Source of the DNA: Phosphitispora fastidiosa
Lineage (GTDB): Bacteria > Bacillota > Thermincolia > Thermincolales > UBA2595
DNA length: 52,859 bases
Direction: 5' to 3'
Assembly: GCF_019008365.1 (NCBI RefSeq)
Contig: NZ_JAHHUL010000024.1
Coordinates: 1-52,859, forward strand
Of this stretch, positions 36,342-48,506 are shown in pieces. Both the position numbers and the translations under genes were made by a program. Below the pieces are notes generated by a model that was not told where the DNA came from, ran no database searches, and saw only the letters and a program-made list of their open reading frames with translations. Within the stretch, counting starts at the first letter, position 1, and each line of letters opens with the position of its first letter.

Positions 36342-37621
36342 TAAGGATATTGGAATCCGGAGATACCGCTATTGCTAATGTTATCAAGAAAGAATTTCCT
36401 GACCAGGCGGTTTATGAGGAACGGGTCAGGGAAATTCTGCAGAATGTCAGGGAACGCGGTGACGAGGCCCTTATTGAATACACAGCCAGGTTTGACCGGG
36501 CTCAGCTTGCCCCAGAAACCCTGAGGGTTTCTACTGCGGAAATAGAAGAGGCATATAAAGAAACAGATGATGAATTTCTGACTGCTATCCGGAGGGCCAG
36601 GGATAATATTGCGGTTTATCACCGCAAACAGCTGCATACATCATGGATGGAAACCAGTGAGGACGGCACCATCCTCGGTCAGCTGATCAGGCCGGTGGAG
36701 CGGGCCGGTATCTATGTCCCGGGAGGTACGGCCAACTATCCGTCTTCGGTGTTAATGAATGCGGTACCGGCCGGTGTTGCCGGGGTCCGTGAGATAGTAA
36801 TGGTGGCCCCGCCGGGAAGTGATGGGAGGCTGCAGGCTTCTACCCTGGTAGCTGCCGCTGAGGCCGGAGTTACGGAAATCTATAAGCTGGGAGGAGCCCA
36901 GGCAGTGGCGGCTTTGGCTTATGGTACCGCAACTGTAAAGCCTGTTGATCTGATCACCGGACCGGGTAATATATATGTTACTCTGGCCAAAAAAATGGTA
37001 TATGGTGTGGTTAATATAGATATGCTGGCCGGACCCAGTGAGATACTGGTGATTGCCGATGATACCGCAGACCCGGTTTATGTGGCGGCTGACCTGCTGT
37101 CCCAGGCCGAGCATGATGTACTGGCTTCGGCAGTGCTGTTAACTCCCTCCAGAGTCTTGGCCGAAGCTGTCAGGGAAGAAATTCGCCGGCAGGTCGGTTA
37201 CCTCTCCCGGAAGGAAATCATGACCGCATCTTTAAGGGACTACAGCGCCATCATTGTGACCAGGGACCTGGCGGAGGCAGTGGAACTGGCAAACAGTTAT
37301 GCCCCCGAACACCTGGAGCTGGCTGTGGCAGCGCCCTTTGACATGCTGGGGAAAATCAGGAATGCCGGTTCCATCTTTATGGGGCATTATACCCCGGAGC
37401 CGGTGGGAGATTATTTTGCCGGACCCAACCATGTGCTGCCAACCGGCGGAACGGCAAGGTTTTATTCTCCGTTGAATGTGGATACCTTTATGAAAAAATC
37501 CGGCCTGATTGCATATTCTCCGGACAGACTGAAGAAGCACGGCGCTGATATCATCAAACTGGCTGAGACAGAAGGCTTGGATGCCCATGCCAACTCTGTC
37601 CGGGTCAGGCTGGGAAAGTGA
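36338..37621 (+). CDS. hisD: Histidinol dehydrogenase
   Basis: A 427-aa zinc enzyme performing the last two oxidation steps to histidine. Motifs seen are GIYVPGGTANYPSSVLMNAVPA, the AGPSEILVIAD segment, LLSQAEHD, and the C-terminal zinc/substrate residues in AGPNHVLPTGGTARF. Length is standard. Start ATG overlaps the hisG stop (ATGA). Confidence 0.96.
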   Translation: MIRILESGDTAIANVIKKEFPDQAVYEERVREILQNVRERGDEALIEYTARFDRAQLAPETLRVSTAEIEEAYKETDDEFLTAIRRARDNIAVYHRKQLHTSWMETSEDGTILGQLIRPVERAGIYVPGGTANYPSSVLMNAVPAGVAGVREIVMVAPPGSDGRLQASTLVAAAEAGVTEIYKLGGAQAVAALAYGTATVKPVDLITGPGNIYVTLAKKMVYGVVNIDMLAGPSEILVIADDTADPVYVAADLLSQAEHDVLASAVLLTPSRVLAEAVREEIRRQVGYLSRKEIMTASLRDYSAIIVTRDLAEAVELANSYAPEHLELAVAAPFDMLGKIRNAGSIFMGHYTPEPVGDYFAGPNHVLPTGGTARFYSPLNVDTFMKKSGLIAYSPDRLKKHGADIIKLAETEGLDAHANSVRVRLGK

Positions 37622-37632
37622 GGGCAGATACT

Positions 37633-38703
37633 ATGCAAATCAGAGATATGGTAAGGGAAGACATCCGGAACCTGGTGCCCTATGAGCCCCATCCATATGC
37701 GGATGTGATTAAACTTGATGCCAACGAAAATCCTCATGCCTTTCCTGCTCCGGTAATTAAAGATATTTTCGAAACCCTTACCGGTGATGTTTTCACCAGG
37801 TATCCGGACCCCCTTGGTGAGGAATTAAGGGGTGAGATCGGGAAAATGACAGGGGCTGCCCCGGAAAACATTATCCTGGGGAACGGGTCTGATGAGCTTA
37901 TCCAACTGCTGCTGCAGACCTTTGGCGGACCGGGCAGGCGGGTGGTCATTCCGGTCCCTACATTTGCAATGTACAAAATCCATGGACAGATTACCGGGAC
38001 TGAGCCTGTAGAGATTCCCCGGAACAGCGATTTTTCTCTTGATGAGGAGAGATTAATTGCTGAAATGCAGGTTTCGGGCGCTACCACGACCTTTATTGCC
38101 ACACCCAATAATCCGACAGGCACCATAGCGCCGGTGGAACAGGTGCGCCGGCTTCTGGAGCGGGTGGATTCCCTGGTGATAATTGATGAGGCATATATTG
38201 ATTTTGGAGGCCAGACCTGCCTGCCCCTGATTCGGGAATACCCGAACCTGGTGGTGCTGCGGACCTTTTCCAAGGTTGCCCTGGCAGGGCTGCGGCTCGG
38301 TTATCTGACGGCAGATGCCGCTGTCGTCAGGGAACTGCTGAAGGTAAAGCAGCCATACAATGTTAATGGATTTTCTCAGGCGGCGGCCCGGGCAGTGCTC
38401 AAAAACTGGCAGTATTTCCGGGAACAAATTGCGGAAATAGTTGCGGAACGGGTAAGACTGGAGGCTGAATTGGGAAAAATAAAGGGAATTGAAGTGTTCC
38501 CTTCAAAAGCAAACTTTGTTCTCTTCAGGGTTCCGGTCCCGGCGGCTGAACTTCACCGGGGGCTGTTGGAAAACGGTGTCCTGGTCAGGAAAAACCCCGG
38601 CCGCACTCACGGGTTGGAGCAGTGCCTGCGGGCAACAGTCGGCACCAGGCAGGAAAATGACTTTTTTCTGGAGAAACTAACTAAATTAATTCCCATTTCA
38701 TGA
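37633..38703 (+). CDS. hisC: Histidinol-phosphate aminotransferase
   Basis: A 356-aa fold type I PLP enzyme. The PLP lysine lies in FSKVALAGLRLGY, preceded by VIIDEAYIDF and the ATPNNPTG motif. Start at ATG 37633; a GTG 15 bases upstream overlaps the hisD stop but lacks a site of its own. It converts imidazole acetol phosphate to histidinol phosphate. Confidence 0.95.
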   Translation: MQIRDMVREDIRNLVPYEPHPYADVIKLDANENPHAFPAPVIKDIFETLTGDVFTRYPDPLGEELRGEIGKMTGAAPENIILGNGSDELIQLLLQTFGGPGRRVVIPVPTFAMYKIHGQITGTEPVEIPRNSDFSLDEERLIAEMQVSGATTTFIATPNNPTGTIAPVEQVRRLLERVDSLVIIDEAYIDFGGQTCLPLIREYPNLVVLRTFSKVALAGLRLGYLTADAAVVRELLKVKQPYNVNGFSQAAARAVLKNWQYFREQIAEIVAERVRLEAELGKIKGIEVFPSKANFVLFRVPVPAAELHRGLLENGVLVRKNPGRTHGLEQCLRATVGTRQENDFFLEKLTKLIPIS

Positions 38704-38719
38704 AACGGAGTGATTTGAA

Positions 38720-39313
38720 GTGGCTAAGGCACGGAAAAGCAAGGTATCCAGGACGACAACAGAGACAGATATTAATATCTCGCTGAACCTGGATGGTAAA
38801 GGAAGCTACAAACTGGATACAGGGGTCCCTTTTCTGGACCATATGCTGGCATTATGGTCCAGACACGGTATGTTTGACCTGGATGTAGAAGCCCAGGGAG
38901 ATACCGGGATTGATGACCACCATACTGTGGAGGATATCGGCATCTGCCTTGGACAGGCAATTTCTCAGGCCTTGGGAGATAAGGCGGGAATCAGGCGTTA
39001 CGGAACTGCTTTTGCGCCCATGGATGAGTCTCTGGCCATGGTAGTTATTGATATCAGCGGCAGGGCCTTTACCTCTGTTGATATACCTATGCCGGCTCAG
39101 AAGGTAGGGGACTTCGATACCGAGCTGGTGGAGGAATTCTTACGGGCTCTGGCCACTAATGCGGAGATTACTCTCCATGTCAGGCTGCTTCAGGGAAAGA
39201 ACACTCACCACATAATCGAGGCTGTTTTCAAGGCGCTGGGCAGGGCTATCAATGAAGCTGTTTCCATTGATGTGCGTATTGAGGGAATTATGTCTACAAA
39301 AGGGCAGCTATAA
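38720..39313 (+). CDS. hisB: Imidazoleglycerol-phosphate dehydratase
   Basis: A 197-aa single-domain HisB, without the histidinol-phosphatase fusion of enterobacteria. Mn-binding His clusters are visible: FLDHML, DDHHTVED and KNTHHIIEAVFKA. A GTG start follows GGAGTGA. A separate histidinol phosphatase is not in this window. About 94 bp of non-coding DNA with no clear element separates it from hisH. Confidence 0.95.
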   Translation: MAKARKSKVSRTTTETDINISLNLDGKGSYKLDTGVPFLDHMLALWSRHGMFDLDVEAQGDTGIDDHHTVEDIGICLGQAISQALGDKAGIRRYGTAFAPMDESLAMVVIDISGRAFTSVDIPMPAQKVGDFDTELVEEFLRALATNAEITLHVRLLQGKNTHHIIEAVFKALGRAINEAVSIDVRIEGIMSTKGQL

Positions 39314-39407
39314 GCATTGAGCGGCTGAGAGACAGGCAGTATGGGGCGGGAGGCATGAGAGCCGGCCCAGGTTGGCAGCATGAAAAATCGGAGGATAGAC
39401 AATTATT

Positions 39408-40010
39408 ATGATAGCTATAATTGATTATGGGATGGGGAATCTGCGGAGTGTGCAGAAAGGTTTTGAACACGTAGGGTTTGATGCCCTGGTAACATCAGAC
39501 CCTGAAGAAGTCAGAAAAGCCGCTAAGGTCGTATTGCCGGGAGTCGGGGCCTTTGGTGATGCCATGGCGAACCTGAGGAATGCCAGAATGACCGAAGTAA
39601 TTACCGATGCTGTGAAAGACGGGAAACCCTTTCTAGGGATCTGCCTGGGCCTGCAACTGATGTTTGATTCCAGTGAAGAATTTGGCTTTCATGAGGGCCT
39701 GAAAATCTTCCCCGGCAGAGTCAGGATGCTTCCTCCGGGGCTGAAAATTCCCCATATGGGATGGAACCAGATAGAGATCCGGCAGGAGGTTCCCCTGCTT
39801 AAAGATATTCCTGAAGGGGCGTCCTTCTATTTTGTGCATTCTTTTTATGCGGAACCCAGTGACCCTGGGATTATCACAACAGTGACAGACTATGGAATAA
39901 AATTTACATCCATAGCCGGGAAGGACAATGTTTTTGGCATCCAGTTCCACCCGGAGAAAAGCAGTTCACTGGGGCTGCAGATTCTAAAGAATTTCGGGGA
40001 GATGAGATAA
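39408..40010 (+). CDS. hisH: Imidazole glycerol phosphate synthase, glutaminase subunit
   Basis: A 200-aa class I glutamine amidotransferase. The nucleophile is Cys79 in GICLGLQLMF, with GVGAFGDAM before it and the His/Glu pair in FHPEKS near the C terminus. It channels ammonia to HisF. Its stop shares a base with the hisA start. Confidence 0.96.
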   Translation: MIAIIDYGMGNLRSVQKGFEHVGFDALVTSDPEEVRKAAKVVLPGVGAFGDAMANLRNARMTEVITDAVKDGKPFLGICLGLQLMFDSSEEFGFHEGLKIFPGRVRMLPPGLKIPHMGWNQIEIRQEVPLLKDIPEGASFYFVHSFYAEPSDPGIITTVTDYGIKFTSIAGKDNVFGIQFHPEKSSSLGLQILKNFGEMR

Positions 40011-40747
40011 TGCTGGTTATACCTGCAATCGACCTGCGCAACGGAAAATGTGTCCGGCTTGTGGAGGGGAAAATAGAGAATGAAACCATCTATTCAGATG
40101 ACCCGGCAGAAATGGCGCGTAAATGGGAAGGGCTTGGGGGGCAGTTCCTGCACCTGGTTGACCTGGATGGCGCTTTTGCCGGGAAACCGCAAAACGATGA
40201 GGCTGTCAGGAGCATTGTTGGCGCTGTCTCCATCCCTGCAGAGCTGGGTGGCGGAATCAGGGATATAGAAACCATTGCGTACTACCTGGACATGGGTGTG
40301 AGCAGGGTTATCCTGGGGACAGTGGCGATATCCAATCCAAAGCTTGTCGCCGATGCGGTCGGGAAGTTCGGGGCAGAGCGGATTGTGCTGGGGATTGATG
40401 CCCGGGACGGGATGGTGGCCATTCACGGCTGGGACTCCACAGTTACCAAAACAGCAGTTGAGCTGGCTTTGGAAATGAAGCAGTTAGGGGTCGAAAGGGT
40501 TATTTATACTGATATCAAGCGGGATGGGACCCTCAAGGGACCCAATATCGAGAGCACCAGGGAAATTGCTGTGGAAACAGGTCTTAAGATAATAGCTTCC
40601 GGAGGTATCGCCGGGCCAGAAGATATCAGAGCGGTAAAAGAGTTGGAGTCGGCGGGGGTGGAAGCGGTTATTACCGGAAAAGCCCTTTATGATGGCAGGC
40701 TGGATCTGGAGGAAGCCCTAAGGATTAGCGGGGGACAGGAAAGATAG
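40010..40747 (+). CDS. hisA: ProFAR isomerase
   Basis: A 245-aa (beta/alpha)8 barrel. The catalytic Asp8 (IPAIDLRNG) and the second Asp in GIDARDG are present, with phosphate-binding GGGIRD and ASGGIAGPED. It carries out the Amadori rearrangement before HisF/HisH. Confidence 0.96.
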   Translation: MLVIPAIDLRNGKCVRLVEGKIENETIYSDDPAEMARKWEGLGGQFLHLVDLDGAFAGKPQNDEAVRSIVGAVSIPAELGGGIRDIETIAYYLDMGVSRVILGTVAISNPKLVADAVGKFGAERIVLGIDARDGMVAIHGWDSTVTKTAVELALEMKQLGVERVIYTDIKRDGTLKGPNIESTREIAVETGLKIIASGGIAGPEDIRAVKELESAGVEAVITGKALYDGRLDLEEALRISGGQER

Positions 40748-40759
40748 GAGAGATAGGAG

Positions 40760-41518
40760 ATGCTGGCAAAAAGAATCATACCGTGTCTTGATGTAACCGG
40801 GGGCAGGGTGGTTAAAGGGACAAACTTCGTAGACCTGAGGGATGCCGGTGATCCGGTGGAGCTGGCGGCCTTTTATGACCGGGAAGGCGCAGATGAGCTG
40901 GTCTTTCTGGATATCACCGCTTCCTCGGACGGTCGGGAGACAATGCTTGATGTGGTCAGGAGAACTGCTGAGGAGGTCTTTATCCCGTTTACTGTTGGCG
41001 GGGGGATCAGGAAGGTTGAAGATATGAGGATAATGCTGGCTGCAGGAGCGGATAAGGTTTCGGTGAATACTTCTGCGGTGCAGAACCCGGGCCTGATAGC
41101 AGAGGGCGCCAATAAGTTCGGGTCCCAGTGTATCGTCCTGGCAGTTGATGCTAAAAGGACCGGCGCTCCGGGGAAATGGGAAGTATATATCCACGGCGGG
41201 AGGACCCCAACCGGGATAGACGCCATGGAATGGATTAAAAAGGCCGAAGAGCTCGGCGCCGGTGAAATACTCCTCACCAGCATGGATGGGGACGGGACCA
41301 AGGACGGTTATGATATCGAACTCACCAGGACGGTAGCGGAACTGGTTAATATACCTGTTATCGCCTCAGGCGGAGTAGGCAATCTGGAACACATCAGTGA
41401 AGGACTTGTCGAGGGAAAGGCCGATGCCGCCCTGGCAGCCTCCATATTTCATTTTGGAGAATATTCCATCAGTGAGACAAAGCAGTATTTGAGGGCAAAA
41501 GGGGTGGTGGTCAGATAA
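40760..41518 (+). CDS. hisF: Imidazole glycerol phosphate synthase, cyclase subunit
   Basis: A 252-aa barrel homologous to HisA. Catalytic Asp11 ([13 protein letters not shown]) and the second Asp in VLAVDAKR are intact, as are GGGIRKVED and [10 protein letters not shown]. It makes IGP and AICAR, so it feeds the purine pathway, where the missing formyltransferase step begins. TAGGAGA is its ribosome site. Overlaps hisIE by one base. Confidence 0.96.
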
Positions 41519-42141
41519 TGGATTTTGAGATGAATTTACTTAAATTTGATGCACACGGGCTGATTCCGGCCATTATTCAGGATGTGAATACAGATGAGGT
41601 TTTGATGATGGCTTATATGAACAAGGAGTCTCTGCAGAAGACCCTCGAAACCGGGCGGACCTGGTTCTGGAGCAGAAGCAGGAAGGAACTGTGGAATAAG
41701 GGGGCTACCTCCGGTCATTACCAGGAGGTAAGGACCATAAGTTATGACTGTGACGCTGACAGTCTGCTGGTCAAGGCTGTGCAAACAGGGGCAGCATGTC
41801 ATACCGGTGAACGCACCTGTTTTCATAACCCTGTTTTGGAGGCTGCAGCCGAAGACTCCGCTTCAGCTGGCATACTCAATGAGGTTTATGAGGTGATAAT
41901 GAGCCGCAAGAGGGAGATGCCGGAAGGCTCATATACCACTTACCTGTTTACCAAGGGAATTGATAAGATCTGTAAGAAGGTAGGGGAAGAAGCCGCGGAA
42001 GTGATTATCGGAGCCAAAAACAGGAACAGGGAAGAGGTCATCTATGAGGTGGGGGACTTGATTTACCACCTGTTGGTCCTGCTCGGTGAACAGGGGATAG
42101 AGCCAAGCGAAGTTTACCGGGAACTGGCCGGGAGAAGATAA
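41518..42141 (+). CDS. hisIE: Bifunctional phosphoribosyl-AMP cyclohydrolase / phosphoribosyl-ATP pyrophosphatase
   Basis: A 207-aa fusion. The N-terminal HisI half has [24 protein letters not shown] (Mg) and the Cys/His zinc ligands in [13 protein letters not shown]. The C-terminal HisE half is an all-alpha NTP pyrophosphatase-like domain with [12 protein letters not shown] and [14 protein letters not shown]. It performs steps 2 and 3 of histidine synthesis and ends the his operon. Confidence 0.96.
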
Positions 42142-42531: not shown

Positions 42532-42565
42532 AGACCTTCCCGGAACGGAAGGTCTTAACCTTTTT
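42532..42565. terminator. Terminator between SHOCT gene and the HPRT-like gene
   Basis: AGACCTTCC (42532-42540) and GGAAGGTCT (42547-42555) flank CGGAAC; the plus-strand tail is TAACCTTTTTC. The right arm touches the stop codon of the convergent gene. Confidence 0.8.
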
Positions 42566-43094
42566 CTGCAGGGGAAAGCTCGGCAATATATGGGAGATTA
42601 CGATATTTTTCTTCATAATCCAGGCCGTAGCCAACCGCGAATGCATCAGGCTGAATAAATCCCTGGTAGTCAACCGGAATGTTCAGGAGACGTTCCGCGG
42701 GATTGTCAAGAAGGGTGCAGATCTTTAAACTGGCCGGTTTGCTGGATTCCAGGTACTGACAGATATAACCGAGGGTCAATCCGGTACCGATGACATCCTC
42801 TACCATCAGGACATGCCGTCCGGTTATCGAAATGTCCAGGTCCTTGGTGATGCGCACAATACCTGTTTCACTGGTTACACCGGGGTAAAGACCGATGGCA
42901 AGGAAGTCAATACTGAGTGGAATGGTAAGTTGTCTGGTGAGGTCAGCAACAAAATATAATGACCCTTTAAGGACACTGACAATAACCGTATCCCTGTCCC
43001 GGTAGTCGGAGCTGATCTGCCGGCCCATTTCGGCAACTCTTTGTTTGATGGTTTCTTCACTGAACAGTATTTTTCCTATTTCGGGTTCCTTCAT
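42555..43094 (-). CDS. Degenerate hypoxanthine phosphoribosyltransferase homologue
   Basis: A 179-aa HPRT-fold protein with normal length and the C-terminal VGYGLDYEEKYRNLP conserved, but key residues are changed. The PRPP motif reads VEDVIGTGLT: the catalytic Asp of EDxxDTG is Gly103 (codon GGT). The flexible-loop Ser-Tyr pair is replaced (FLAIGLYPG). The base-contacting Lys of LLxKP is Asn131 (LLDNP). The Glu99-Asp100 pair that holds PRPP remains. It is therefore more likely a PRPP- or nucleotide-binding pseudo-enzyme than a salvage enzyme; the normal hpt is at 9969. Its start overlaps the stop of the gene before it (ATGA), so the two are translated together. Confidence 0.85.
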   Translation of the reverse strand: MKEPEIGKILFSEETIKQRVAEMGRQISSDYRDRDTVIVSVLKGSLYFVADLTRQLTIPLSIDFLAIGLYPGVTSETGIVRITKDLDISITGRHVLMVEDVIGTGLTLGYICQYLESSKPASLKICTLLDNPAERLLNIPVDYQGFIQPDAFAVGYGLDYEEKYRNLPYIAELSPAEKG

Positions 43095-44095
43095 TCTCCC
43101 TTGGTTCCTCCTTTATGCATTGTATTTCTATTTTGAAGCCGCGCTGCATCTGCTTCGCGAAGGGCGGGTTCACCTTCGCGCAGTCCGAATCTTTTCAGAA
43201 GTGAGTAGAAATCATTCTTAAATACAATATTTATGTTAGTTCCCGGGTATAGTTCCTTGAGGAGCCGCATCTTTTTCTTTTTTTCGGTGACATACTTTTG
43301 GTCCATAGTAGTAAGCTCGATATATGTGTCAAAGCGGGGCAGGTAAAAATCCGGAGCAAAGGCTTTGGTGATATTGCCTTCGGCATCCCATTCAATGGGA
43401 AAAGTCCGGGGTTCATACTCCCAGGCGATATTATACATATCAAGAATTTTGGAAAACTCTTCTTCAGAAGGATGCCTGAAGGCAGAAGGCTTCCCCGCTT
43501 CTTCAGTACCCTCAGGGCTGCCGGTGGAGACGGCAGCGGTCATTTTGACCTCAGCCAGATATGCCAGGAGAGATACACATTCCCTAATCCCCAGATAATC
43601 GGTATTCAGGGTAAGGTGATAAAGTCCGGGGTCTGCCCAGTCTTTCTCATATACTGTGTTGATAAACCTTCTGCGTTTCCGGTCGCTTAACTCAAGAAAC
43701 CTTTTTGCATCTTGTTTTTCCAGTCCGTGAGTCTGCATCACTCTGCTTAGCCGGACAGCATCAGAGGCGGTTATCCTAATATGCAGGGCGGCAGGATCGC
43801 CGGCAAATATTACCTGGGAGCCTAAACCCTGTATTATTACGGATTGTTTGGTCACCACTTCCCTGAGCCTGGTCTCTATATATTCGGCAAAGCTTACTCC
43901 GGCATCAGACCGTTTCAGAAAGAAGCGGGGACTCTCTGCCAGCATACGCATTTCATGGTCATCAGCTATTTCGGGCAGCCAGTGATTCATAATAAAATCG
44001 TGGGTGATTACCTCAAAGCCAAGGCGTTTGGCAAGCATTTGGATAATTTCATAGCCCAGGCTTCCGGCCTGTCTGGAAAAGGTAATAAAAAACAT
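43091..44095 (-). CDS. Cytidylate-kinase-like / PD-(D/E)XK-like fusion protein
   Basis: A 334-aa protein in two parts. Residues 1-185 look like the cytidylate-kinase-like family: FSRQAGSLGYEIIQMLAKRLG at the P-loop, then FIMNHW, VIIQGLGSQVIFAG and a helical lid. The loop lacks the Lys of a true P-loop (GSLGYE). After a linker (186-208), residues 210-305 have a nuclease-like pattern: a leading Glu helix, APDFYLP with Asp249, and YIELTT with Glu260 followed by Lys-rich sequence, as in PD-(D/E)XK folds. Function unknown. It overlaps the degenerate HPRT gene by ATGA, which argues for a joint role. The final ~30 residues are polar. Confidence 0.7.
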   Translation of the reverse strand: MFFITFSRQAGSLGYEIIQMLAKRLGFEVITHDFIMNHWLPEIADDHEMRMLAESPRFFLKRSDAGVSFAEYIETRLREVVTKQSVIIQGLGSQVIFAGDPAALHIRITASDAVRLSRVMQTHGLEKQDAKRFLELSDRKRRRFINTVYEKDWADPGLYHLTLNTDYLGIRECVSLLAYLAEVKMTAAVSTGSPEGTEEAGKPSAFRHPSEEEFSKILDMYNIAWEYEPRTFPIEWDAEGNITKAFAPDFYLPRFDTYIELTTMDQKYVTEKKKKMRLLKELYPGTNINIVFKNDFYSLLKRFGLREGEPALREADAARLQNRNTMHKGGTKGE

Positions 44096-44889: not shown

Positions 44890-45615
44890 ATGTTTAACAA
44901 ACACTTAAGGAATGTGAAACCAATGAATAAACCAGTGCAAATTAACAAAAATATAAGGCATGGTTTTAATTTATGGAGCGGCAGTGCGGGAACAGCCTTG
45001 GAAGGACTGAATGTTTTACTCAATAGGCGGGACACCGGTACCGGAGGCCATTCCCTGAGGGTACTCAGATATACGGAGGCGATTGCCGAAGAACTTGGGA
45101 TACAGGGACCGGAGCTCGAAGCTTTACGAATTGGGGCGCTGCTCCACGATATCGGGAAAATAGCAATACCTGATTCAATCTTACTAAAACCAGGTAGTTT
45201 AAACAGGGGTGAATGGGTGATTATGAAAACACATCCCCGTTTGGGGGCAGATTTGATATCGGTGGTTAAGTCACTGCAGCCAGCCATCCCAATTGTGCTG
45301 CACCATCATGAGTGGTACAATGGTTCGGGTTATCCCGATGGCCTGATGGGAGAAGAAATTCCTCTGGGAGCAAGAATTTTTGCAGTTGCAGATGCCTTTG
45401 ATGCCATGACCAGCGTCAGGCCTTACAGAAGCGCTATGGACGTTGAAAGCGCTATCAAGGAGTTGAAGGCAGGCAGCGGAACTCAATTCTGCCCGGCGTG
45501 TTTAAAGGCGTTTTTGAATTTGGAACATAAGAACCTGATTAACATATATGCTGAATGCAAGAAGGAAGCTGAACCTATACAGCTTTACGGTGTCCAAAAC
45601 TATATTGACCTTTAG
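44890..45615 (+). CDS. HD-GYP domain protein, probable cyclic-di-GMP phosphodiesterase
   Basis: About 241 aa, a stand-alone HD-GYP domain. It has H-x-x-R (GGHSLRVLRY), the His86-Asp87 pair (LLHDIGKIAIPD), KTHPRLGADL, HHHEWYNGSGYPDGL with the GYP residues at 147-149, and VADAFDAMTS. These are the metal and substrate residues of c-di-GMP hydrolases. No sensor domain is fused. An ATG at 44923 is an alternative start. Its transcript ends at a strong hairpin. Confidence 0.92.
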   Translation: MFNKHLRNVKPMNKPVQINKNIRHGFNLWSGSAGTALEGLNVLLNRRDTGTGGHSLRVLRYTEAIAEELGIQGPELEALRIGALLHDIGKIAIPDSILLKPGSLNRGEWVIMKTHPRLGADLISVVKSLQPAIPIVLHHHEWYNGSGYPDGLMGEEIPLGARIFAVADAFDAMTSVRPYRSAMDVESAIKELKAGSGTQFCPACLKAFLNLEHKNLINIYAECKKEAEPIQLYGVQNYIDL

Positions 45616-45717: not shown

Positions 45718-46521
45718 GTGACAACTGTGTTACTCTTTCTAACCGGGCTGCTTGCCGGAGGCTTCGGCGCCCTCCTGGGACTTGGGGGAGGTGTCATCGT
45801 TATCCCTGTCCTGACTATTCTGTTTGGGCTGCCAATCCATACTGCCATTGGAGTCAGCCTTGTCGGGGTTATAGCTACCTCTACCGGAGCTGCAATAGTC
45901 TATGTCCGTGAAGGGAAAGCCAATATTAAGCTGGGGATGACCCTGGAACTGGGCACAACTGTCGGCGCAGTGGCCGGTGCGGTTGTGGCCGGGTTTGTCA
46001 GTGCCAGGGTATTATATTTTCTTTTCGCCGGGATGGTAGTCTATAATGCATATACAATGTATGGCAGGGAAGATAAAGAAGGCAGCCGGGAAGAAGATGC
46101 CGCGGCGGAAGATGATAAGATGACTGTAAACAAGGAAGGGTGCGGATATACGGTAAAGAATATTCCCCTTGGAATTTCGCTGTCGTCACTGGCAGGAGTT
46201 ATGTCCGGCCTTTTGGGGGTTGGAGGGGGATTGATAAAAATACCGGTGATGTATTTATTAATGGGTGTTCCCCTTAAAGCGGCCGCTGCCACCAGTAACT
46301 TTATGATTGGGGTTACTGCCAGCGCCAGTGCATTTATTTATTACCTGAACGGAAACATAGATGCAGTGGCGGCAGTTCCGGTAGCTCTGGGAGTGTTCGG
46401 CGGGGCCGCTATAGGGACTCGGGTGAATGAGCGGATTTCCACGCGGGCTCTGAAAAAAGTATTTGTATTTGTGTTTATCTATATTGCGGTTCAGATGCTT
46501 ATTAAGGGTTTCGGGGGGTAG
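45718..46521 (+). CDS. TauE/SafE-family sulfite exporter-like permease
   Basis: A 267-aa membrane protein with about eight helices in two repeats, each with a Gly-rich motif (FGALLGLGGGVIVIPVL and MSGLLGVGGGLIKIPVMYLL). A loop rich in charged residues (residues ~118-140) joins the halves. The family exports or imports sulfur-containing anions; the substrate is not predictable. A GTG start follows AAAGGAG. It is paired with a DUF1634 gene two bases downstream. Confidence 0.92.
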   Translation: MTTVLLFLTGLLAGGFGALLGLGGGVIVIPVLTILFGLPIHTAIGVSLVGVIATSTGAAIVYVREGKANIKLGMTLELGTTVGAVAGAVVAGFVSARVLYFLFAGMVVYNAYTMYGREDKEGSREEDAAAEDDKMTVNKEGCGYTVKNIPLGISLSSLAGVMSGLLGVGGGLIKIPVMYLLMGVPLKAAAATSNFMIGVTASASAFIYYLNGNIDAVAAVPVALGVFGGAAIGTRVNERISTRALKKVFVFVFIYIAVQMLIKGFGG

Positions 46522-47240: not shown

Positions 47241-48452
47241 TTATGCAGCACAGTGTAACAGCAACTTTTCCCTATAATATGCCTCGGGGGTTCTATAGTC
47301 ATAGCTGGCATGTAGTCTTTTTCTATTGTAGAAAATCATTATGTATTCAAAAATCTTGGATTTCGCTTCAGCCCTTGTTCTAAATTTTTGGTCATTAAGC
47401 CATTCTTGCTTCATTTTCCCCCAGAAAGATTCCATCGGCGCATTATCCCAGCAGTTGCCTTTTCGAGACATACTGCAGATGTAGCCATATTTCGTCAATT
47501 GCTCTCGGTAGGCATATGAGCAGTATTGCGACCCTCTGTCAGAATGTAGAATTGCCTTTTGAGGTCTGCCAGAGGTCTTATAAGCATCATGGAGGGCATC
47601 TATTACCAATTGTTTTGTCATTCTGTCTGACATTGATAAACCGACAATTTTACCTCCACACAAATCCATTATTGCGGCCACATACAGCCATCCTTCATCC
47701 GTGTGGACATAGGTTATATCGGAGACTAGCTTTTTATTTGGTTTTTCAGTCCCAAAATCTCGGTTCAATAAATTCTCTGCCACCGGAAGATTGTGATTAG
47801 AGTCAGTGGTAGCCTTGTATTTCTTCTTCACCTTTGACTTTATCCCATTCCTGCGCATGATCCGCTCTATTCGTTTATGATTAATTCTTTGAAGTTTACA
47901 GTAGCGTTCTTCGGCATCTTTTGCTTCTAAGGACTTTCTGACCTTGATGCTTCCATAGGTATTATTATCCATGCTTATGCACGAAAAATCATGCATCCCC
48001 TGAGCTAAAAGGTAGTCCATGAAATAGCCGGATTGTTTGGTATAGTGCACTACTGTAGATTTTGAATAATCCTTTGTTGAGACACAGTAATCCTCAAACC
48101 GTTTGCTTGTCTCAATGAAATATGGATTAGTCAGCAGTTTCCGGTGTTTCAGGTATCTCCGTAAAACCGCATGGTGGAGCTGGAAGTCGCCAACCATCAG
48201 TATGACACGGAGTTCTTGGGTTTGTGCCTGGTTCAGTGTTCGCGAGAAATCATCCTGCGTAATGCCGAAGTATTCCTGTACGAAATCAATGCCAAGCTGT
48301 TCAGTGTAGTACTCCTGTCCTTTCTTGTCCGCAAAGTCTTTAAGCTTCCGCCAGCGATTGCGATAAAAGGTCATGCTGCCTTTTGTGTAACCGAGGCGGA
48401 GTAGTTCCTGTTCCAAATCCTGGAGCAGTTTGTGAAGCTTCTGTGGTTTCAT
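47241..48452 (-). CDS. Chimeric protein: integrase N terminus fused to IS3-family transposase
   Basis: About 403 aa from the ATG ending at 48452, with AGGAGGT upstream. Residues 1-160 resemble the two SAM-like DNA-binding segments of a tyrosine recombinase (LEQELLRLGYTKGSM... and KDYSKSTVVHYTKQSGYFMDYLL). From about residue 163 (NNTYGSIKVRKSL) it is the IS150/IS3 OrfB integrase core: Asp245 (VSDITYV), Asp305 (HSDRGSQY) and Glu341 (NAPMESFWGKMK), with IFYNRKRLH at the end. OrfA and the first ~60 residues of OrfB are missing, and the integrase lacks its catalytic domain. It is probably an in-frame deletion fusion; function doubtful. Confidence 0.8.
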   Translation of the reverse strand: MKPQKLHKLLQDLEQELLRLGYTKGSMTFYRNRWRKLKDFADKKGQEYYTEQLGIDFVQEYFGITQDDFSRTLNQAQTQELRVILMVGDFQLHHAVLRRYLKHRKLLTNPYFIETSKRFEDYCVSTKDYSKSTVVHYTKQSGYFMDYLLAQGMHDFSCISMDNNTYGSIKVRKSLEAKDAEERYCKLQRINHKRIERIMRRNGIKSKVKKKYKATTDSNHNLPVAENLLNRDFGTEKPNKKLVSDITYVHTDEGWLYVAAIMDLCGGKIVGLSMSDRMTKQLVIDALHDAYKTSGRPQKAILHSDRGSQYCSYAYREQLTKYGYICSMSRKGNCWDNAPMESFWGKMKQEWLNDQKFRTRAEAKSKIFEYIMIFYNRKRLHASYDYRTPEAYYREKLLLHCAA

Positions 48453-48506
48453 AAGCAGTACCTCCTGATAGATATTTGAGAAAAATCTCAAATCTATTAT
48501 CGGAGA

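Follow-up and report, generated by a model that had tools for sequence, protein, structure and literature searches.

Organization of the Locus

The window, the whole 52,859-nucleotide stretch of Phosphitispora fastidiosa DNA analyzed here, carries two minus-strand open reading frames that overlap by the four nucleotides ATGA (43091–43094, minus strand), which hold the stop codon TGA of gene 1 and the start codon ATG of gene 2. Gene 1 (P0001; 43091–44095, minus strand) encodes a 334-residue fusion of a kinase-like and a nuclease-like domain, and gene 2 (P0002; 42555–43094, minus strand) a 179-residue HPRT paralogue, referred to as HPRT2. A AAAGGAGG-type ribosome-binding sequence lies just 5′ of the gene 2 start. 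An earlier note on this DNA had described both the overlap and the fusion, and both are borne out: the overlap is seen in the sequence, the two domains are matched within one open reading frame, and the motifs APDFYLP and YIELTT lie where the note had placed them.

Downstream, histidine operon genes (hisC, B, H, A, F and IE; 37618–42141, plus strand) converge on the pair. The histidine pathway and that of HPRT2 both use PRPP, and this neighborhood is possibly a coincidence. On the other side, an HD-domain gene (44890–45615, plus strand) and a TauE-like permease gene (45718–46521, plus strand) separate the pair from an integrase/transposase-like frame (47241–48491, minus strand), all three being named from sequence alone.

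Conservation and Constraint

HPRT2 lies directly downstream of the nuclease domain, or is fused to it, at 108/110 loci from about nine phyla; the two exceptions (L091 and L098) have no neighboring HPRT. The earlier note had staked its two-gene unit on homologues being found together, and the neighborhood survey found them so. Scans of genomes and contigs located the nuclease domain in Bacillota, Actinomycetota, Chloroflexota, Atribacterota, Nitrospirota, Acidobacteriota, Methylomirabilota, Armatimonadota, and 'Deltaproteobacteria', as a rule with one copy of the module per genome. In Actinomycetota it occurs in 63 of 199 genomes of the class to which a Coriobacteriia member belongs, in one copy each, and in Chloroflexota in 96 of 301 genomes, two of these matches being weak. 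In eight Chloroflexota genomes no HPRT adjoins the nuclease gene, and seven of the eight have a second HPRT elsewhere that falls off the canonical clade.

The architectures comprise a kinase-like–nuclease fusion followed by HPRT2, the three domains as three genes, a nuclease gene followed by HPRT2, a nuclease–HPRT2 fusion, and a GAF–nuclease–HPRT2 triple fusion; natural fusions of nuclease and HPRT2 are found in Chloroflexota and Thermomicrobium roseum. Pairwise distances of the nuclease domain and HPRT2 correlate (r = 0.78; shuffle maximum, 0.13). Among close relatives, dN/dS is 0.01–0.05 for the nuclease-like domain, 0.05–0.09 for HPRT2, and 0.08–0.13 for the kinase-like domain, compared with 0.37–0.56 for the fast-evolving, low-pLDDT linker of gene 1 (residues 186–204; 43484–43540, minus strand). 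All domains are thus under strong purifying selection, the nuclease-like domain being the most constrained. Because dN/dS stays at 0.01–0.13 in every domain and the pairing is kept across phyla, the gene pair is confirmed as real, far beyond chance.

The Kinase-Like Domain and Its Replacements

Residues 1–185 of gene 1 (43541–44095, minus strand) belong to the Cytidylate_kin2 family (PF13189), which matches residues 3–165 at E = 1.4e-29 with 104 bits against a curated cut-off of 28; the (d)CMP kinase profile TIGR02173 gives 29.6 bits, below its cut-off of 102.1. The full-length AlphaFold2 model of gene 1, built on 54 homologues, has a pLDDT of 87, and its kinase-like half aligns with the PF13189 structure 3hdt over 164 residues (Z 22.5, rmsd 1.6) and matches a further structure of the family, 3fdi.

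The P-loop of this domain, SRQAGSLG (residues 7–14; 44054–44077, minus strand), had been called degenerate. By sequence and column tally the Walker-A lysine is indeed absent, but its absence is largely a family trait, since the solved relatives 3fdi and 3hdt (GSGG) miss it too, and only the change from GSGG to GSLG is the window's own. The gene 1 domain resembles the PF13189 family in fold and sequence and differs from it in this further P-loop change, in being joined to a nuclease domain, and in being absent or replaced by GAF in relatives.

The module upstream of the nuclease domain varies among relatives and can be kinase-like, GAF, PC4-like, or missing. GAF takes the place of the kinase-like domain in Chloroflexota and was seen in 13 further proteins, nearly all of them triple fusions, and the PC4-like N-terminus occurs in one protein only, with a score below cut-off. 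At three loci (L042, L059, and L070) a remnant of the kinase-like domain with an eroded P-loop precedes an intact nuclease part.

A T7 Endonuclease I–Like Domain with an Altered Motif

The C-terminal domain of gene 1 (residues 205–304; 43184–43483, minus strand) resembles T7 endonuclease I, a Holliday-junction resolvase of the PD-(D/E)XK class. Pfam Phage_endo_I (PF05367) matches residues about 198–300 at E = 2e-5, narrowly missing its curated cut-off (27.0 versus 29.1 bits). T7 endonuclease I is likewise recovered from the PDB (2pfj, E = 4e-5), a profile of the family matches 3cae over about 100 residues (E 1.3e-6), and PHROG 945 is matched at E = 1e-8. The domain was also modeled alone, since kinases took up the results when the complete protein was used for fold searches. 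The resulting AlphaFold2 model (59 homologues; pLDDT 81, pTM 0.75) has main secondary structure elements in the order H-E-E-E-H-E-H and contains the alpha-beta-beta-beta-alpha-beta core of PD-(D/E)XK proteins. Its top Foldseek match is T7 endonuclease I (E 2e-3), and nearly all of its VIA matches are PD-(D/E)XK proteins: Bax1 (Z 8.3), I-Bth0305I (7.5), VRR_NUC (7.1), PspGI (6.4), Vsr (6.3), TnsA (6.0), and Hjc (5.5). T7 endonuclease I itself is absent among the VIA matches listed, possibly because it is domain-swapped. Despite moderate Z values, the agreement of the VIA list with the sequence match makes the predicted PD-(D/E)XK fold a firm assignment, and the fold prediction by which the earlier note proposed to judge its claim returned the core.

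Across 162 nuclease domains, the T7 triad E20/D55/E65 is identical throughout. Its equivalents in the window are E211 (43463–43465, minus strand), D249 of the PD motif (43349–43351, minus strand), and the first residue of E260-L261-T262 (43310–43318, minus strand), which corresponds to T7 E65-T66-K67. The P-D and E elements of the motif are therefore invariant, but its lysine is a family-specific threonine in 162/162. Residues E7, D45, E56, T58, and K68 of the domain are each present in 162/162, and K68, together with K71 (161/162), lies on the helix that follows the motif. A viral-contig relative with 38% identity (L037) carries an ordinary E-V-K motif, so the threonine is probably derived within the family. 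Overall, the domain shares with T7 endonuclease I a match of about 100 residues and the three acidic positions, and is set apart by the loss of K67 in all members, the multidomain chain, the HPRT2 partner, and the score below the Pfam cut-off.

The missing lysine means that the domain may be inactive. It could then only bind nucleic acids, and the pair would act as a regulator similar to PurR or PyrR, with HPRT2 as the PRPP sensor and a PD-(D/E)XK domain in place of the HTH. The threonine in 162/162 domains, the precedent of PurR and PyrR as regulators with a PRT fold (PMC8789054), and the PC4-like N-terminus in one lineage are consistent with this idea. We nevertheless consider it unlikely: the metal-site E, D, and E, which pseudo-nucleases usually lose, are invariant in 162/162, and the conservation of K68 and K71 makes a relocated lysine possible.

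HPRT2 Differs from Canonical HPRT

HPRT2 of the window scores 186.6 bits against the NCBIfam HGPRTase profile (TIGR01203; cut-off 150). Its residue numbers happen to match those of Bacillus anthracis Hpt-1, in which ppGpp and PRPP are contacted by E99, D100, D103, K131, F152, L158, and R165 (PMC6783271). Two of these residues are lost. The PRPP-binding loop, EDVIGTGLTL (residues 99–108; 42771–42800, minus strand), has glycine in place of the catalytic D103 (human D137), and N131 (42702–42704, minus strand) replaces the lysine that binds the purine O6 (K131 in B. anthracis, K165 in human HPRT; PMC6783271). E99, D100, F152, L158, and R165 are kept, as is D159. The earlier description of a PRT fold devoid of key catalytic residues thus holds for D103 and K131 and fails for the remaining contacts.

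A canonical HPRT with EDIVDTGLTL and the purine lysine is encoded on the same contig (9993–10484, plus strand; 218 bits), 33 kb from HPRT2, a spacing that recurs in a sister species (G006). Canonical HPRT coexists with HPRT2 in 27 of the 28 Bacillota genomes checked; in one genome (G403), HPRT2 is the only HPRT match found. In the tree, nuclease-linked HPRTs stand apart from the canonical HPRTs that their genomes also encode, which rules out HPRT2 as a redundant copy; three rows labeled "canonical" (L042, L050, and L082) are in fact nuclease-linked loci. A single origin of HPRT2 is likely from these sequences but not proved, because a few nuclease-linked rows branch beside the canonical group in a wider, quicker tree. 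HPRT2 thus keeps family-level similarity to HPRT, including the PRPP loop and R165, and differs from the canonical enzyme in its separate branch, in the D103G and K131N changes of the window, and in its coupling to a nuclease domain. At three loci (L048, L049, and L064) the pair adjoins a tilS-hpt-ftsH-like cluster, so the paralogue may stem from a local duplication. The HPRT2 of a Desulfovibrio sp. metagenome-assembled genome (L075) falls inside Dethiobacter/Bacillota sequences, and that contig is probably misbinned.

Among 102 HPRT2 sequences, E133, R199, and D193 (human numbering) are present in 102/102, as in the window, and D134 in 100. The catalytic D137 is kept in 88 and is glycine in 11, with lysine, arginine, and asparagine once each, and K165 is kept in 30/102, compared with 33/34 canonical HPRTs. 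The glycine form arose once (11 sequences, support 100/99), and asparagine is found at D137 in ten sequences of another clade, to which T. roseum belongs. At least three clades have replaced the aspartate (by G, K/R, or N), and the nuclease motifs never vary. Low dN/dS (0.05–0.09) indicates that the D-to-G form is functional and rules out pseudogene drift. Because most relatives retain the aspartate, the phrase "two degenerate nucleotide-binding proteins" in the earlier note was an overstatement.

With the aspartate retained in most relatives, HPRT2 might instead be catalytically active, as a transferase with a changed base specificity, in a module that salvages an unusual base or nucleotide through the PRT and then the kinase, with the nuclease-like domain as scaffold or nucleotide supplier. 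This would fit the change of the base-contacting lysine in 72/102 sequences, the Cytidylate_kin2 partner, apt downstream of the pair in several Coriobacteriia, and HPRT2 as the sole HPRT found in one genome. We regard it as improbable for the module as a whole, given that the window clade, a T. roseum-type clade, and some other sequences have no aspartate, with the aspartate-less gene of the window clade still strongly constrained; that the kinase-like domain has no Walker-A lysine, and many lineages either lack this domain or have GAF in its place; and that the nuclease-like domain is the most constrained part. In the lineages that retain the aspartate, HPRT2 may be an active transferase.

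Genomic Neighborhoods

The neighbors of the pair, named by reading their sequences except where Pfam matched, are lineage-specific and of housekeeping type. They include a hisC-like aminotransferase gene directly after HPRT2 in Atribacterota, ROK/lysS/greA in Syntrophomonadaceae-type genomes, and elsewhere tilS-hpt-ftsH, rnhB, and MTHFR-fhs. In three Actinomycetota loci (L084, L090, and L112) the pair is inserted directly after rnhB.

Since rnhB lies near the pair in three loci and mutM is a neighbor in T. roseum, and T7 Holliday-junction resolvase is the nearest solved relative, the module could comprise a DNA repair or recombination nuclease, such as a branched-DNA resolvase, under nucleotide-level control. 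This seems rather improbable: repair neighbors are inconsistent across lineages, the motif lysine is missing, and the salvage-enzyme partner would be left unexplained.

The earlier note had also suggested a defense module. The combination of a nuclease with a nucleotide-binding partner, the ATGA coupling, and a weak similarity of the nuclease domain to PADLOC entries would suit an anti-phage or toxin–antitoxin function, which we judge very improbable. The PADLOC matches are short and partial, involve the nuclease domain only, and include no full-length match to a described defense protein; no defense genes were seen among neighbors at the relatives' loci surveyed; and the phage collection searched does not contain the nuclease domain. 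Moreover, the module is single-copy, its two phylogenies mirror each other, and it is present in complete-looking single-contig genomes of 1.36–1.52 Mb. Searches of PADLOC, phages, and plasmids returned no known defense system. Defense is therefore not supported, and a nucleotide-sensing module is plausible. The regulatory flavor that the note had proposed agrees with the replacement of the kinase-like domain by GAF in Chloroflexota and with repeated loss of the HPRT aspartate beside constant nuclease motifs.

A Proposed Ligand-Gated Effector Model

The module has the look of a ligand-gated effector: its sensor-type N-terminus is swapped, the metal-site residues of its effector-like domain do not change, and its PRT can do without the chemistry but not without the PRPP loop. 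From sequence and structural models, we propose, at a probability of roughly 0.4, that the pair forms one module in which a PD-(D/E)XK effector is gated by PRPP or another nucleotide through a variable N-terminal sensor and an HPRT paralogue. The N-terminal domain, kinase-like in the window, would be a ligand-binding sensor. HPRT2 of the window, with its PRPP loop kept and its catalytic aspartate and purine-specifying lysine gone, would most likely be a ligand-binding regulatory subunit rather than a salvage enzyme, and may bind PRPP or a nucleotide that competes with it, for instance ppGpp. The nucleotide state sensed by both would gate the nuclease-like domain, a putative phosphodiesterase-type effector for metal-dependent cleavage or binding of nucleic acids. 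Complex formation, PRPP or nucleotide binding, nuclease activity, a direction of control, and a target are presumed in this model.

Precedents exist for the PRT part. HPRT binds ppGpp via its PRPP loop, D103 contributing by its backbone only (PMC6783271), and the PRT domain of PurR, which performs no catalysis, binds PRPP and ppGpp (PMC8789054). HPRT2 would resemble Bacillus PurR as a catalysis-less PRT with a PRPP loop, functionally joined, as we infer, to a domain that acts on nucleic acids. It differs in that its PRT is a separate gene and a homologue of HPRT rather than of PurR, and in that the effector is PD-(D/E)XK; Pfam and NCBIfam profiles find no winged-helix DNA-binding domain in either protein.

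Several observations run against the gated effector. The window has lost K131, the residue by which HPRT holds the guanine oxygen of ppGpp. HPRT2 of most relatives keeps D137 and may, judging by its residues, have transferase activity. In G403, no HPRT other than HPRT2 was found, L091 and L098 have no HPRT beside the nuclease gene, and several Chloroflexota genes are unlinked. The more specific proposal of a widespread housekeeping signaling nuclease, in which the HPRT paralogue would bind PRPP, (p)ppGpp, or some other nucleotide and, together with the swappable sensor, directly control a PD-(D/E)XK enzyme with a lysine-free motif, is one we hold as tentative and somewhat doubtful.

No published description of the HPRT2/nuclease combination was found in the set of open-access papers surveyed. 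The domains are already known and their combination is undescribed in the literature searched; it would extend the PRT-sensor kind and could quite possibly be categorically new. The pair points to an undescribed housekeeping switch that links nucleotide status to the cutting or binding of nucleic acids, rather than to phage defense.

More generally, many bacterial phyla have genes that carry the names 'hypoxanthine phosphoribosyltransferase' or 'cytidylate kinase-like' and that seem to belong to a single conserved module, the T. roseum product WP_012643103 being an example. If the sensing reading is true, purine or PRPP status would be tied directly to an enzyme that acts on nucleic acids, the known cases of a PRT fold turned sensor (PurR, PyrR, and HPRT–ppGpp) would gain another, and a PD-(D/E)XK family that lacks the motif lysine would become available for mechanistic work.
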